This document shows, piece by piece, positions 1,541 to 7,288 of a stretch of DNA of 10,053 nucleotides. Numbering within the stretch: position 1 is the stretch's first letter; the number at the start of each line of letters is the position of its first letter. A program made the translations under genes and the position numbers. The notes under the pieces were generated by a model. The model was not told the origin of the DNA and did not search any database. It saw only the letters and a list, made by a program, of their open reading frames with translations. This stretch comes from an uncultured Bacteroidota bacterium (GTDB lineage Bacteria > Bacteroidota > Bacteroidia > Chitinophagales > Chitinophagaceae), in the NCBI GenBank assembly GCA_903879995.1, contig CAIRNW010000310.1, positions 1 to 10,053 of the forward strand. The letters are read 5' to 3'.

Positions 1541-2755
1541 ATGATTGATAAGCGGAATAAGATTGAACAAGAAGAACGAGCCATCCTCGTAGGCGTTATC
1601 CAAAAAGATCAAACAGAAACACAGGTCTCAGAATACTTAGCAGAGCTAGCCTTCTTAGCTAGTACTGCGGGGGCTATAACCGTCAAAACCTTTACACAAA
1701 AACTTCCACATCCTGACAGTAAAACTTTTATTGGTAAAGGAAAGCTGGAAGAGATTGCAACCTATGTAAAGGGTAAGGACATCCGTGTAGTAATTTTTGA
1801 TGACGAACTCAGCGGCGCACAGATCAATAATATTGAAAAAGCCCTCCAGGTAAAAACAATTGACCGGAGTGATTTGATATTAGACATTTTTGCACGACGT
1901 GCCAAAACTGCGCAAGCAAAAGCACAAGTAGAATTAGCCCAATACCAATATATATTACCCCGGTTGCGAGGAATGTGGAAACACTTGGAACGTCTAGGAG
2001 GCGGCATTGGTACCCGAGGCCCTGGAGAAACAGAAATTGAAACAGACCGTCGAATTGTTCGTGATAAAATTTCACTCTTACGCAAACGGCTCGCAGAAAT
2101 CGATAAACAAGCATTTACACAACGCAAAGAAAGAGGTGAATTTATTCGTGTTGCCTTAGTGGGCTACACCAATGTGGGGAAATCCACGCTCATGAATTTA
2201 TTAAGCAAGCGTGATGTATTTGCAGAAAATAAACTATTTGCCACGCTGGACACCACTACCAGTAAAGTAGTATTTGAAAACACACCATTCCTGCTGAGTG
2301 ATACGGTTGGATTTATTCGAAAACTTCCCCATCACTTGGTAGAAAGCTTCAAGAGTACGCTAGATGAAGTAAAAGAAAGTGATATCCTATTACACGTAGT
2401 TGATATTTCTCATCCTAATTATGAGGATCAGATGAAAGTAGTTAACACCACACTGGCTGAACTAGGCTGCGCGGATAAGCCCACGGTAACTATTTTCAAT
2501 AAAATGGATGTATATGAAAAACAAACCTTTGACCAGTGGTTAGAAGAAGACGTAAAAGAATCCATTTTAAGAGATTTAAAAAAACGGTGGGAGAATGAAA
2601 CACTGGGTGCCTGCGTATTTATATCTGCAACAGAAAAAAGAGAGATTGACACCTTACGAACAAACTTACTACAACAAGTAAGGAAATTATACAGTCAACG
2701 ATATCCGTATAAAACTGCTTATTACTCCCATGTCGACTACACCGAAGGAACTTGA
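1541..2755 (+). CDS. hflX: Ribosome-associated GTPase HflX
   Basis: The product is 404 residues, close to the usual length of the family. The N-terminal nucleotide-binding HflX domain includes FIGKGKLEE (63-71) and the family signature GGGIGTRGPGETEIETDR (153-170), preceded by a helical linker. The TRAFAC-class G domain follows with G1 GYTNVGKST (208-216), G3 DTVGFI (254-259), G4 NKMD (320-323) and G5 SATE (362-365). HflX binds the large ribosomal subunit and splits stalled or stress-damaged 70S ribosomes; it is cytosolic. The ATG at 1541 lies 9 bases after the barrel gene, with a modest AGGA at 1531-1534, unusual for this AT-rich window. The 3' end overlaps the next gene by 26 bases in another frame. 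All catalytic motifs are intact. Confidence 0.97.
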   Translation: MIDKRNKIEQEERAILVGVIQKDQTETQVSEYLAELAFLASTAGAITVKTFTQKLPHPDSKTFIGKGKLEEIATYVKGKDIRVVIFDDELSGAQINNIEKALQVKTIDRSDLILDIFARRAKTAQAKAQVELAQYQYILPRLRGMWKHLERLGGGIGTRGPGETEIETDRRIVRDKISLLRKRLAEIDKQAFTQRKERGEFIRVALVGYTNVGKSTLMNLLSKRDVFAENKLFATLDTTTSKVVFENTPFLLSDTVGFIRKLPHHLVESFKSTLDEVKESDILLHVVDISHPNYEDQMKVVNTTLAELGCADKPTVTIFNKMDVYEKQTFDQWLEEDVKESILRDLKKRWENETLGACVFISATEKREIDTLRTNLLQQVRKLYSQRYPYKTAYYSHVDYTEGT

Positions 2756-3071
2756 TTGGCATTTGCTGACGGAAGATCCTAAAAACTTACCCTGGGATCA
2801 ACAAGCTATTTTATCGTTTACCATTCATGAAAAAACCATTTGCCTGACACAACAGGATGGAAAATTCTACGCGTTTCAAGCACTTTGCCCCCATGCCGGC
2901 GCCCCATTGAAAGACGGGTATATAGATGCAAAAGGGAATATTGTTTGCCCGCTCCATCACTATAAATTTTGCCTCTCCAATGGCCGAAATTGCACTGGGC
3001 AAGGCTATGATATGCGTGTTTATGCGTTGGAAATGAGAGCAGACGGCCTTTATGTCGGATTCCGAAAATGA
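2730..3071 (+). CDS. Small Rieske [2Fe-2S] ferredoxin-like protein
   Basis: The product is 113 residues forming a single Rieske domain. The cluster ligands are visible as CPH (Cys53, His55) and CPLHH (Cys73, His76), the CxH...CxxH pattern. The context ALCPHAGAPLKDGYID and IVCPLHHYKFCLSNG is like NirD/biphenyl-dioxygenase-type soluble Rieske ferredoxins. There is no signal peptide or membrane helix, so it is a cytosolic electron carrier. Its partner oxidoreductase is not in the window. The ATG at 2730 lies inside the hflX 3' end, giving a 26-base overlap and suggesting translational coupling. The next ATG in frame falls after the cluster ligands, so this start is required unless a non-ATG codon is used. 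Family is secure; physiological role is unknown. Confidence 0.93.
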   Translation: MSTTPKELDWHLLTEDPKNLPWDQQAILSFTIHEKTICLTQQDGKFYAFQALCPHAGAPLKDGYIDAKGNIVCPLHHYKFCLSNGRNCTGQGYDMRVYALEMRADGLYVGFRK

Positions 3072-3093
3072 GTCTAAATATTCTGATTTTCCT

Positions 3094-3101
3094 TATTTTT
3101 G
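3094..3101 (+). promoter_or_regulatory. -7 box for tRNA-Asn
   Basis: TATTTTTG fits TAnnTTTG. It would start a transcript with a leader of roughly 45 bases before the tRNA. That leader can form two hairpins: CCGCCG (3106-3111) with CGGCGG (3130-3135), and GTTTC (3137-3141) with GAAAC (3146-3150), the second ending two bases before the tRNA. These may guide 5' processing. The -33 box is not clear, so this is a moderate call. Confidence 0.4.
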
Positions 3102-3152
3102 CTCCCCGCCGGAAAGATCTCCATCTAAACGGCGGCGTTTCAAAAGAAACAC

Positions 3153-3226
3153 TCCTCCTTAGCTCAGTTGGTTAGAGCATCTGACTGTTAATCAGAGGGT
3201 CGCTGGTTCAAGTCCAGCAGGGGGAG
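3153..3226 (+). tRNA. tRNA-Asn (GTT)
   Basis: This is a 74-base cloverleaf. The acceptor stem TCCTCCT (3153-3159) pairs with AGGGGGA (3219-3225), including one G-U pair, with discriminator G3226 as expected for Asn. The D arm is GCTC/GAGC. The anticodon stem is TCTGA/TCAGA and the loop CTGTTAA, with GTT at 3187-3189 (reads AAC/AAU). The T arm is GCTGG/CCAGC. CCA is not encoded. The anticodon arm matches the CAT tRNA at 678-751 except within the anticodon. Confidence 0.96.
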
Positions 3227-3239
3227 CTGATATAAATGT

Positions 3240-3274
3240 AAAAGGGTTATACTTTGATAGTATGACCCTTTTTT
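3240..3274. terminator. Strong intrinsic terminator after tRNA-Asn, probably two-way
   Basis: The left arm AAAAGGGTTATACT (3240-3253) pairs with AGTATGACCCTTTT (3259-3272) over 14 pairs with one G-U, around the loop TTGAT, and runs into TTTTTT (3269-3274). It ends the tRNA-Asn transcript. Read on the minus strand, the same stem is followed by TTTTAC, so it can also stop the regulator gene that ends at 3282. Confidence 0.88.
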
Positions 3275-3281
3275 CGATCAT

Positions 3282-3644
3282 TTAACACTTATTATTTATC
3301 ACATCTTCCTTGTACTGCATTATCTGTTTTTTCATTGCGCGGATATCCTTCATCTTATGTTCAAGGGATAACAACTTCTCGTCTAAAATTTGAAGCTTTT
3401 CCTTTTTTGAGTACTTCCGGTTATACCAGGCATCAATAATTTGGCCGATCTCTTTAATAGTAAAGCCGACCGATTTCGCATCACTGATAAATTCAAGTTT
3501 TTCAACAGTTACGTCATCATAATGGAAGTAATTGTTGGATTTTACGGACTCGTCTCTTCTACCAGCAATCAAACCCGACTTCTCGTAGAAGCGAATAGTG
3601 TGAACTGAAATACCTGCCTTTTTCGATAATTCGTTTATTAACAT
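3282..3644 (-). CDS. MerR-family transcriptional regulator
   Basis: The product is 120 residues, using ATG at 3642-3644 because the conserved MerR N terminus (MLINELSKKAGISVHTIRFY) begins exactly there; the 13-residue upstream extension possible from 3683 is not MerR-like and would read through the divergent promoter. The winged helix-turn-helix covers residues 1-70 (IRFYEKSGLI 17-26, FTIKEIGQII 61-70), followed by a Lys/Glu-rich dimerisation coiled coil (about 80-113). There is no large ligand domain. The only Cys is the last residue (Cys120), so it lacks the thiols of CueR, MerR or SoxR, and a metal or redox-cluster effector is unlikely. It diverges from the short-chain dehydrogenase, its probable target. 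The effector is unknown. Confidence 0.92.
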   Translation of the reverse strand: MLINELSKKAGISVHTIRFYEKSGLIAGRRDESVKSNNYFHYDDVTVEKLEFISDAKSVGFTIKEIGQIIDAWYNRKYSKKEKLQILDEKLLSLEHKMKDIRAMKKQIMQYKEDVINNKC

Positions 3645-4785: not shown

Positions 4786-5397
4786 ATGAAAGCAAATACA
4801 AAAGAACATTGGGAAAATATTTTTACAACAAAAAAGTACAATGAAGTAAGTTGGTCGCAAGAAATACCTACAAATTCCTTGGAATTGATAAAAAAATCAA
4901 CGCTTGATAAAAAGACAAAAATAATTGACATAGGAGGTGGAGATAGTAAACTTGTTGATTATTTATTAAGAGACGGTTTCACCAATCTCACTGTGTTAGA
5001 CATATCACAAACAGCAATTAACAGAGCGAAAGAACGACTGGGACAAGAATCTGGTAAAGTAAAGTGGATTGTATCTGATATTTTAGATTTTAAACCAATT
5101 GAAAAATATGACATTTGGCATGATAGAGCATCTTTTCACTTTCTAACGCAAAAAGAAGAGATTGAAAAATATTTAGGTACCGTTAAAAGTGTAGTGACAA
5201 GGGCTGCCATAATAGGCACCTTTTCAACTGAAGGCCCAAAAAAATGTAGCAGCTTAGAAATCAAACAATACGATGAAATAACTATGAAAGAATTATTTCT
5301 TCAAGCTGGTTTTAAAAACACAGAATGCAAGCGTGAGGATCATATTACACCAAGTGGAATAACGCAAAACTTTGTTTTTTGCAAATTCAGCAAGTAA
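4786..5397 (+). CDS. Class I SAM-dependent methyltransferase
   Basis: The product is 203 residues with a seven-strand methyltransferase fold. SAM motif I is IIDIGGGDS (46-54), the acidic residue after strand 2 is Asp72 (TVLDIS), and SDILDF (97-102) is the motif II region. WHDRASFHFLT (111-121) follows, characteristic of a family of small Bacteroidota methyltransferases that begin with HWENxF...VSW, as here (8-23). The end (TQNFVFCKFSK) matches what I recall of full-length relatives. The substrate is not known; TehB-like or metalloid methylation is only a guess suggested by the adjacent arsenic genes. It stands between the dehydrogenase and the arsenic cluster in the same orientation but with its own 217-base upstream region. 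No Shine-Dalgarno is visible. Confidence 0.9.
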   Translation: MKANTKEHWENIFTTKKYNEVSWSQEIPTNSLELIKKSTLDKKTKIIDIGGGDSKLVDYLLRDGFTNLTVLDISQTAINRAKERLGQESGKVKWIVSDILDFKPIEKYDIWHDRASFHFLTQKEEIEKYLGTVKSVVTRAAIIGTFSTEGPKKCSSLEIKQYDEITMKELFLQAGFKNTECKREDHITPSGITQNFVFCKFSK

Positions 5398-5416
5398 TTA
5401 CGCGCAAACTGATTAC

Positions 5417-5605
5417 ATGCAAGCTGTCACCTCAATGGGTATTGCACTTGCATTTGACCCCTTTAATACAGAACAAAAATGGAATGACAGGCCAACGTGG
5501 CAAAAGACTGTTTTAATTCTCCACCTTGCAGTAGTGGCAGCTATGTTTGGCCTAGGGATGGGATACAGGATAAATAAACTCACTTTTGCAATTTTTGGAT
5601 GTTAA
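5417..5605 (+). CDS. Small membrane ORF, probably the 3' remnant of a truncated gene
   Basis: This encodes 62 residues from the only ATG. It has a hydrophobic start (AVTSMGIALAF), a polar stretch DPFNTEQKWNDRPTWQK, then a clear membrane helix (about KTVLILHLAVVAAMFGLGMGY). The frame is open upstream into the methyltransferase end, but there the start is an unconvincing TTG (5372) and no ribosome site is seen. The DPF(N)xxxxWxxRPxWQK segment followed by a helix reminds me of the C-terminal half of small two-helix proteins of unknown function in Bacteroidota, so the first helix may have been lost when the methyltransferase or arsenic genes were joined here. Its end overlaps the earliest possible arsR start by a few bases. 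Functional status is uncertain. Confidence 0.4.
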   Translation: MQAVTSMGIALAFDPFNTEQKWNDRPTWQKTVLILHLAVVAAMFGLGMGYRINKLTFAIFGC

Positions 5606-5633
5606 ATATTAATCGTATTTTTACGATTAATAT
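5606..5633. promoter_or_regulatory. ArsR operator: perfect 12-4-12 inverted repeat
   Basis: Arms ATATTAATCGTA (5606-5617) and TACGATTAATAT (5622-5633) are exact inverted repeats around TTTT. The right arm includes the A and T of the arsR start codon at 5632. ArsR/SmtB repressors bind such AT-rich dyads near their own promoter and are released by As(III), so this is the expected autoregulatory site. Because it lies in the leader, repression would block elongation or initiation from an upstream promoter; a full -7 match TATGTTTG is present at 5542-5549 and a one-mismatch match (CACTTTTG) at 5581-5588. Confidence 0.75.
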
Positions 5634-5964
5634 GGGAGCCAGTAAATTAACCGAATACACTCAGAAAGAAATAAACTTGGCTAAGTACGCCAAGGCGCTT
5701 GCACATCCAGCTCGAGTTGCCATTGTGAAGCTGTTGCTTAAAAAGCAAACATGCATATGTGGCACTATTGTTGACGAGCTACCCATTTCACAAAGCACAG
5801 TATCGCAGCATCTAAAAGAATTAAAGAATGCTGGATTAATAAAAGGTGAAATTGAAGGAGCAGCCGTTTGTTACTGTATTGATGAAAAAGAGTGGTTATT
5901 CGCACAATCATTAATTACAGGTTTATTTGACAAGCACTCGTCTAATAATCTTAAATGTTGCTGA
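5632..5964 (+). CDS. arsR: ArsR-family arsenic-responsive repressor
   Basis: The product is 110 residues, normal for the family. I prefer ATG 5632 over 5599 because the extra 11 codons would be read straight through the operator palindrome and are not family-like. The winged helix-turn-helix includes LAHPARVAIVKLL (23-35), the recognition region SQSTVSQHLKELKNAGLIKG (53-72) and the wing (EIEGAAVCYCIDE). The metalloid site is the CxC pair Cys41-Cys43 (TCICG) at the start of the DNA-binding region, as in arsenite sensors; extra Cys residues are Cys80, Cys82 and the C-terminal Cys109-Cys110, any of which could be a third ligand. It represses the arsR-arsM-arsC unit until As(III) binds. The next coding segment begins 38 bases downstream. 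Confidence 0.93.
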   Translation: MGASKLTEYTQKEINLAKYAKALAHPARVAIVKLLLKKQTCICGTIVDELPISQSTVSQHLKELKNAGLIKGEIEGAAVCYCIDEKEWLFAQSLITGLFDKHSSNNLKCC

Positions 5965-6002: not shown

Positions 6003-6113
6003 ATGAAAACAGCTGCAGAATTGAAACAGTTAGTGAAAGACAAATACAGCGAAATAGCTATGCAAGAAAAGGAAACAAATATGTCATCCTGCTGTGGTGC
6101 TGGTGAATGCTAG
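6003..6113 (+). CDS. arsM: N-terminal segment of arsM, ended by an in-frame amber codon
   Basis: ATG 6003 opens 36 codons (MKTAAELKQLVKDKYSEIAM..., ending SSCCGAGEC) and stops at TAG 6111-6113. The reading frame is the same as that of the large arsM ORF at 6132 (129 bases, 43 codons apart). After the TAG the frame continues TEVYNI into the Met of MSDDYT, which is the sequence I recall for intact Bacteroidota ArsM proteins. So this is the usual ArsM N terminus, with its Cys cluster, cut off by one nonsense codon. It could be a real mutation, a base-call error, a site of amber readthrough, or a translated leader that allows reinitiation 18 bases later. In related enzymes an N-terminal Cys takes part in the disulfide relay of As(III) methylation. 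Confidence 0.75.
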   Translation: MKTAAELKQLVKDKYSEIAMQEKETNMSSCCGAGEC

Positions 6114-6131
6114 ACAGAAGTATATAACATT

Positions 6132-6854
6132 ATGAGTGACGATTATACAATATTAGAGGGCTATAATTCTGACGCGGACCTTGGATTAGGCTGTGGATTA
6201 CCTACCCAATTTGCTAAAATCAAAAAGGGTGATGTTGTTGTGGACTTAGGAAGTGGTGCAGGAAACGACTGTTTTGTTGCCAGATATGAAGTGGGCGACA
6301 CCGGAAAAGTAATAGGCATAGACTTTACCCCAAAAATGATTGAAAGGGCTAGGGCCAATGCGGAAGCAAGAGGTTTTAATAATGTTGAATTCCGAGAGGG
6401 TGATATCGAGCAAATGCCTATAACTTCTAATACTGCAAACGTAATTGTAAGTAATTGCGTACTAAACCTTGTACCTAATAAAGATGGCGTTTTTAAAGAA
6501 ATATTTAGAGTATTAAAGCCGGGGGGGCATTTTAGTATCAGCGATGTAGTCCTAGAGGGGGCATTGCCAGAGGGCTTAAGAAGAGATGCTGAGCTGTATG
6601 CGGGCTGTGTATCAGGAGCAATACAGAAAAATGTATATCTGGAACTAATTCAATCAAATGGTTTCGAAAATATTAGCATTCAAAAAGTGAAGCCGATCAA
6701 TATTCCTAATGACATTTTGAAAAACTACTTAAATGACGAAGAAATAAGCACTTTCAAAAATGGAACAGCAGGAATCTTCAGTCTTACTGTATTTGCACAA
6801 AAACCATTGACAAACAGAAACGAAACCTGCACACCCGGTGGTGGCTGCTGCTAA
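6132..6854 (+). CDS. arsM: Arsenite S-adenosylmethionine methyltransferase, main domain
   Basis: The ORF has 240 residues and begins at the Met of MSDDYTILEGYN, inside the normal ArsM sequence rather than at its usual start. It converts trivalent arsenic to methylated, partly volatile species using SAM and thiols in the cytosol. Seen are LGLGCGLPT (conserved Cys21), SAM motif I VVDLGSGAGND (36-46), IGIDFTP (61-67), SNCVLNLVP (107-115), LKPGGHFSISD (128-138) and AGCVSGAI (Cys159, the second arsenic-binding Cys). The C terminus CTPGGGCC has Cys233, 239 and 240. The methyltransferase core is complete; the N-terminal about 43 codons are separated by the TAG at 6111. With Cys21 and Cys159 retained, activity on methylarsenite might survive even if As(III) methylation is reduced. 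arsC follows after 11 bases. Confidence 0.92.
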   Translation: MSDDYTILEGYNSDADLGLGCGLPTQFAKIKKGDVVVDLGSGAGNDCFVARYEVGDTGKVIGIDFTPKMIERARANAEARGFNNVEFREGDIEQMPITSNTANVIVSNCVLNLVPNKDGVFKEIFRVLKPGGHFSISDVVLEGALPEGLRRDAELYAGCVSGAIQKNVYLELIQSNGFENISIQKVKPINIPNDILKNYLNDEEISTFKNGTAGIFSLTVFAQKPLTNRNETCTPGGGCC

Positions 6855-6865
6855 ATCATAGCCTA

Positions 6866-7288
6866 ATGAAAAAAATTCTGATTCTTTGTACTGGAAATTC
6901 TTGTCGAAGTCAAATAGCACATGGGTACTTAAAGCAAATGACAGGTGAAAAAGCGTTAGTATTAAGCGCAGGTGTCGAAACACATGGAGTGAATCCAATG
7001 GCTATTGCAACCATGAAAGAAGACGGTATTGATATTTCAAACCATACATCAAATAATATTTTAGAATACCAACATATTGATTTTGACTTTGTAATTACCG
7101 TTTGTGATAATGCTAAAGAACGATGCCCAATTTTTCCAGGTAAGTCGATTAAATTACACCATAATTTTCCAGATCCAGCCAAAGCAAAAGGAACAGAACA
7201 AGAAATAGAGAGCGAGTTCAAGCGGGTTAGACAGTTGATTAAAGACTATTGCCGTATTTTTGTCAATGAACATCTAAAGATTTATTAA
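6866..7288 (+). CDS. arsC: Arsenate reductase, thioredoxin-type (LMW phosphatase fold)
   Basis: The product is 140 residues. The P-loop CTGNSCRS (8-15) with nucleophile Cys8 and Arg14 identifies the low-molecular-weight tyrosine-phosphatase-like arsenate reductases. The relay cysteines are Cys80 and Cys87 in VCDNAKERCPIFPG, matching the Cys10/82/89 trio of the S. aureus pI258 enzyme, and the DPA motif with the general-acid Asp is at 103-105. It reduces arsenate to arsenite, with electrons from thioredoxin. The start ATG 6866 is 11 bases after arsM, so the two are cotranscribed. It provides the As(III) that ArsM methylates. No efflux pump gene follows; the next ORF abuts the stop codon directly. 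Confidence 0.95.
   Translation: MKKILILCTGNSCRSQIAHGYLKQMTGEKALVLSAGVETHGVNPMAIATMKEDGIDISNHTSNNILEYQHIDFDFVITVCDNAKERCPIFPGKSIKLHHNFPDPAKAKGTEQEIESEFKRVRQLIKDYCRIFVNEHLKIY

Follow-up and report, generated by a model that had tools for sequence, protein, structure and literature searches.

An in-frame amber codon divides arsM in a Chitinophagaceae metagenome bin and is probably a recent nonsense change

Introduction

ArsM proteins have four conserved cysteines, at positions 44, 72, 174, and 224 of CmArsM, according to the available portion of PMC5552862. In the excerpted text of PMC3877260, the human AS3MT (hAS3MT) mutants C32S and C61S lose methylation of iAs(III) and retain methylation of MMA(III), CmArsM C72A behaves in the same way, and hAS3MT Cys156 and Cys206 are required for both methylations. 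Rat AS3MT is given in the same excerpt as reportedly independent of Cys32, Cys61, and Cys85. Elsewhere, two cysteines are said to suffice for the ArsM of Bacillus CX-1 (excerpt of the review PMC6950371), and just one of the three usual cysteines is present in Thermus TtArsM (excerpt of PMC8649762). The stop codons mentioned in the accessible part of PMC8552651 were put into the genes by the authors themselves. For natural in-frame stops, the available passages of Belinky et al. 2021 (PMC7918605) argue that many are not pseudogenes, suggest readthrough, which is argued on the basis of conserved in-frame stops to be frequent in bacteria, and describe in-frame stops of this sort as short-lived polymorphisms.

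Here, we examined a 10,053-nucleotide contig of an uncultured Chitinophagaceae bacterium (the window; contig C310 of its assembly), in which a preliminary description had reported an arsM gene split by a single amber codon. The case resembles those of Belinky et al. 2021, as excerpted, in that one in-frame TAG interrupts a gene that otherwise shows purifying selection; it differs from their main set, in which stops are common to two or more species, in that the stop of the window occurs in no relative examined. Compared to Bacteroidota ArsM proteins (NF008823; P0001 to P0003 and their neighbors), the window frame is the same over 283 residues except at the stop and at one or two further positions, and codon 37 is TAG where those proteins have Ser. 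Most likely, this is either a recent knockout confined to a single strain or an error of assembly, rather than a split enzyme of a new kind.

Results and Discussion

The window belongs to an assembly of 2.10 Mb in 410 contigs (96.7% complete, 4.15% contamination). The features that bear on the interrupted gene are as follows.

5632 to 5964, plus strand: arsR-type metalloregulator, 5′ of arsM (NF033788, 72.4 bits; cut-off 55)
6003 to 6110, plus strand: 5′ piece of arsM, 36 codons, with Cys30, Cys31, and Cys36; conserved at all 79 readable loci
6111 to 6113, plus strand: in-frame TAG, codon 37; Ser in 77 of 79 loci
6114 to 6131, plus strand: TEVYNI codons between the TAG and the next ATG; kept in relatives
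6132 to 6854, plus strand: ArsM catalytic core, 240 amino acids from Met44, with Cys64, Cys152, and Cys202; NF008823 and Pfam methyltransferase matches
6866 to 7288, plus strand: arsC-like arsenate reductase of the LMWPc fold, 3′ of arsM; LMWPc match

From the ATG at 6003 to the terminal stop at 6852 to 6854, the TAG is the only internal stop, confirming the coordinates of a frame that is otherwise open. Complete ArsM proteins align collinearly with the 36 residues before the TAG, with the TEVYNI that follows, and with the core. Against NCBIfam NF008823 (cut-off 263), the core alone scores 321.2 bits and the intact allele P0003 scores 361.2 bits, so that both pass.

We compared this frame with 80 loci, kept from 287 that encode a relative; these are mostly from Bacteroidota metagenome bins, many titled Chitinophagaceae and some with lake or pond in the title. 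One locus (L035) starts at a contig edge and was left out, giving 79 readable loci. Every one of these has Cys30, Cys31, and Cys36 and an uninterrupted run of 43 codons ahead of Met44; in a 43-row alignment, these three cysteines and Met44 are invariant. Judged from these alignments, conservation of the upstream frame is far beyond chance, and Met44 is not the usual ArsM start, since the upstream codons are open and conserved in relatives. The preliminary description had taken the 36 residues and TEVYNI for the normal ArsM N terminus, had placed the stop between the N-terminal cysteine cluster and the catalytic core, and had pointed to a methionine for possible restart 18 bases past the TAG, and all three points stand. 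It had also named, as an observation that would speak against it, relatives that regularly start at the MSDDYT methionine; the relatives instead carry the conserved upstream part, and the exceptions are three database entries from short contigs (P0085, P0121, and P0122). Across genomes, the gene was found at an E value of ≤1e-60 in 45 of 97, including the genome of the window. A short open frame seen in G053 in this comparison was uninformative, as the contig terminates only 59 bases beyond the match. One of the loci (L011) comes from a bin titled Streptomyces griseus with an ArsM core 81% identical to that of the Bacteroidota lineage; the title is probably wrong.

The gene neighborhood is that of an arsenic cluster. 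The arsR-type regulator lies within a longer open reading frame (ORF; 5599 to 5964) with an HTH_5 match, and the arsC-like gene scores 149.6 bits against TIGR02691, under the cut-off of 174.3. By eye, loci L006 and L009 have the same ORF order (arsR-like, arsM, arsC-like), and the order in genome G023 matches that of the window over arsM, an arsC-like ORF, a 448-residue ORF resembling the amidohydrolase of the window, a short ORF, and a longer ORF. In its own assembly, the core has one full match; the sole other match is partial and 29% identical, and no second full-length arsM match was found there. No acr3-type arsenite efflux gene scored over the cut-off in the same genome (best, 19.4 bits). 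At another locus (L156), a 356-residue ORF (2311 to 3381) adjoining arsM is acr3-like by eye. Comparison of the window with viral contigs and plasmids gave no match. Between the S-adenosylmethionine (SAM) methyltransferase ORF and arsR, the window also holds a 77-residue ORF (5372 to 5605) which by eye resembles an 80-residue ORF of L006 (1047 to 1289) from about position 5414 onward; the window ORF lacks an equivalent of approximately 27 residues at the N terminus of the L006 form and has a different C terminus. From this comparison, the ORF looks like a 5′-truncated gene remnant.

The stop itself was found only in the window. At the codon 37 column, none of the 79 loci has a stop (Ser in 77, Gly in L027, and Thr in L074). 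None of 34 further loci of related genomes, at least 3 of which are the same records as in the 80-locus set, has a stop at the same offset either (Ser 21, Gly 9, Thr 2, Ala 1, and Cys 1), where loop lengths vary so that the column is not always equivalent. Among the 120 proteins listed (7,999 scored), 119 include the N terminus and each of these has Ser at the stop column, although predicted proteins cannot reveal an internal stop and the list is therefore no test of whether the stop is shared; the remaining one, P0085, begins at Met44. Intact alleles are close at hand: P0001 differs from the window frame only at the TAG (Ser) and residue 95, P0003 differs only at the TAG (Ser) and residue 250, and among those listed the nine intact entries P0001 to P0009 are at 98 to 99% identity and together represent 20 contigs. 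Residue 95 (6285 to 6287), which sits between the invariant R94 and E96, is Tyr in the window and P0003 and His in P0001, P0002, and P0004 to P0018, making it a second change carried by this haplotype. Between the window and five relatives, pN/pS was 0.11 to 0.13 for codons 1 to 36 and 0.11 to 0.15 for the core; among the relatives themselves, it was 0.04 to 0.24 and 0.09 to 0.18, respectively. As the values for the window fall within these ranges, they give no sign of long decay. Near-identical intact alleles and no sign of decay suggest that the stop is either very young or an error.

We consider it probable that the window carries an ordinary arsR-arsM-arsC cluster of Bacteroidota whose arsM acquired a nonsense codon at position 37 very recently. 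The change would belong to this strain or to the assembled haplotype. Translation of the 36-codon piece would stop at the TAG, and restart by a fraction of ribosomes at Met44 (6132) may yield a low level of the 240-residue core. Lacking the N-terminal cysteines, this core would probably be incapable of the first methylation step on As(III), leaving the strain ArsM deficient for arsenite within a population still carrying working copies. Several considerations count against this reading: the TAG could stem from an erroneous consensus; entries P0085, P0121, and P0122 leave room for a tolerated truncation; the incomplete tRNA set and the failure to find prfA leave a small probability for a suppressor or for reassignment; and the excerpted PMC7918605 argues for frequent readthrough. 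If the stop is real, a survey of gene presence would count this genome as an arsenic methylator even though its arsM may be nonfunctional, and functional and broken copies of arsM would exist together in the population. If it is an error, the case is a warning against treating single stops in metagenome bins as biology. Either reading leaves existing knowledge of ArsM unchanged.

An error of sequencing, consensus, or strain mixing, with the real gene intact, is possible, if rather unlikely. The assembly is fragmented and contaminated to the extent given above, the protein database has intact alleles one other residue away (20 contigs for the nine entries P0001 to P0009), and an independent copy of the TAG was not seen. 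However, Tyr95 is common to the window and P0003, which indicates that the haplotype is not random noise. In addition, P0085 begins at Met44 in two contigs, as a copy bearing the TAG would, although this entry can be read in other ways; we rejected it as proof of an independent TAG, given that its core is identical to that of the intact P0002 and its longest contig is 2,305 bases. Finally, a second in-frame stop did not come to our attention in the contig, only part of whose genes were compared with relatives, and one small ORF (5372 to 5605) looks truncated.

A further explanation is that the stop leaves an N-terminally truncated ArsM that works, with the core produced by restart at Met 6132 and acting on methylarsenite and the 36-residue peptide perhaps serving as a loose partner. 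Restart at Met44 is permitted by the 18-base distance, which makes it a possibility only; Met44 is, as noted, invariant in the alignment. The cysteines that remain in the core, Cys64, Cys152, and Cys202, align with CmArsM 72, 174, and 224. Cys30 aligns with the cysteine at chain position 46 of the algal ArsM 5evj and would be the counterpart of CmArsM Cys44 and human Cys32, an equivalence that is indirect because the CmArsM alignments begin after residue 44. Of the four conserved cysteines of ArsM, only the last three are encoded in the ORF whose translation needs no readthrough. Like the hAS3MT C32S and CmArsM C72A class of mutants in the excerpted PMC3877260, which includes hAS3MT C61S, the core of the window would lack a cysteine of the conserved set, in this case the first (C32 in human, C30 here). 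In contrast to the core, those are point mutants of a full-length enzyme, whereas the product here would miss 43 residues and keep C64, the counterpart of C61 and C72. The preliminary description had raised loss of As(III) methylation and a shift to methylarsenite, both of which would be read across from the published point mutants of human AS3MT and CmArsM. By analogy with hAS3MT C32S, which still methylates MMA(III), the restarted core, if made, may have lost arsenite methylation and kept methylarsenite methylation. The two-cysteine requirement reported in part of PMC6950371 for the Bacillus CX-1 enzyme, the cysteines of TtArsM in the excerpted PMC8649762, and the crystallized human chain described below speak against a strict need for all four cysteines, so that the core, if made, might retain activity.

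Structural comparison bears on the same question. In crystallized human AS3MT (8xt7; 321 residues), 35 residues precede the position aligned to residue 78, versus 77 in the window frame; this shorter front indicates that folding does not require an equivalent of about the first 40 residues. The best fold matches of an AlphaFold2 model of P0003 (mean pLDDT, 72.5) were ArsM and human AS3MT entries. Ten-residue blocks over residues 1 to 60 had pLDDT values of 35 to 58, and the model is therefore silent on N-terminal packing.

Database entries that begin exactly at Met44 would also fit a working truncated enzyme. P0085 has 240 residues from Met44, occurs in two contigs, and represents a cluster of 8 sequences, and P0121 and P0122, from other species, are 85% and 84% identical and represent clusters of 5 and 2 sequences, respectively. 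However, their contigs are short (at most 2,305 bases for P0085, 2,093 for P0121, and 1,216 for P0122), and the entries could represent fragments cut at contig edges, errors in calling the start, or additional truncated alleles. Such start calls do occur: P0123 (contig of 962 bases) begins at a different internal Met with the N-terminal cysteines retained. Moreover, the presence of C30, C31, and C36 at every readable locus argues that the N terminus matters. Taken with these points, a functional truncated ArsM is improbable. It is very doubtful that the truncation is both real and recurrent, arising in the same lineage (P0085) and in related species (P0121 and P0122) and being kept because the core detoxifies methylarsenite from neighbors. 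If this were the case, a single codon would act as a switch from an arsenite methylator to a methylarsenite-only methylator.

The preliminary description had further raised readthrough and a two-piece enzyme, and these fared poorly, with the stop in no relative examined and intact alleles one other residue away. Reading of the TAG as an amino acid, by a suppressor tRNA, pyrrolysine, or UAG-selenocysteine, is scarcely credible. Such recoding would be in line with the selenoprotein ArsM families of NCBIfam, with the readthrough argued for in the excerpted PMC7918605, and with prfA (RF1), which was not found in this assembly, where only an RF2-type match was detected. Nevertheless, the search for an amber suppressor that had been proposed found a CUA anticodon in none of the 27 tRNAs of the assembly, a set that is incomplete (Ile and Phe tRNAs are missing), and no PylS match and no tRNA-Sec over the cut-off were found in the same gapped assembly. 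The tRNA-Sec matches under the cut-off fall on tRNAs that ARAGORN calls Ser (three), Leu, and Trp. UAG-selenocysteine was rejected on this ground and on that of the relatives having mostly Ser at the column. At the stop, the RNA fold was no better than that of shuffled sequences (z = +0.88) and no Rfam match was found. Furthermore, TAG terminates 4 of 52 frames of ≥150 codons sampled from the window and loci of its own assembly; frames ending in this way include ones that we take to be plsX-like and accA-like.

The missing prfA probably falls in an assembly gap. A prfA match over the cut-off was present in 35 of the 41 genomes searched, the genome of the window being among the 41. In the other five genomes, prfA was in pieces in G004, G021, and G036, and only an RF2-type match was found in G006 and G040, which are 86% and 72% complete. 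We infer the RF2-type identity of the match from its score and from the occurrence of the same match beside a full prfA in most relatives. In G023, prfA adjoins a VanZ-like ORF and what we take to be gcvH. Contig C51 of the window's assembly (locus L158), which carries a gcvH-like gene, ends inside the ORF that adjoins prfA in G023 (its tail matched by eye), and this break is the reason for placing prfA in a gap. The window's assembly gave no match to the ORF that flanks prfA on its opposite side in G023, an empty answer that by itself shows nothing. We hold RF1 loss with UAG reassignment to be unlikely, given the break of C51 beside the prfA place and the frames that TAG terminates. The protein of C51 near the prfA place, which we take to be GcvH-like, is 100% identical to that of G023, while the ArsM core of G023 is only 85% identical to that of the window.
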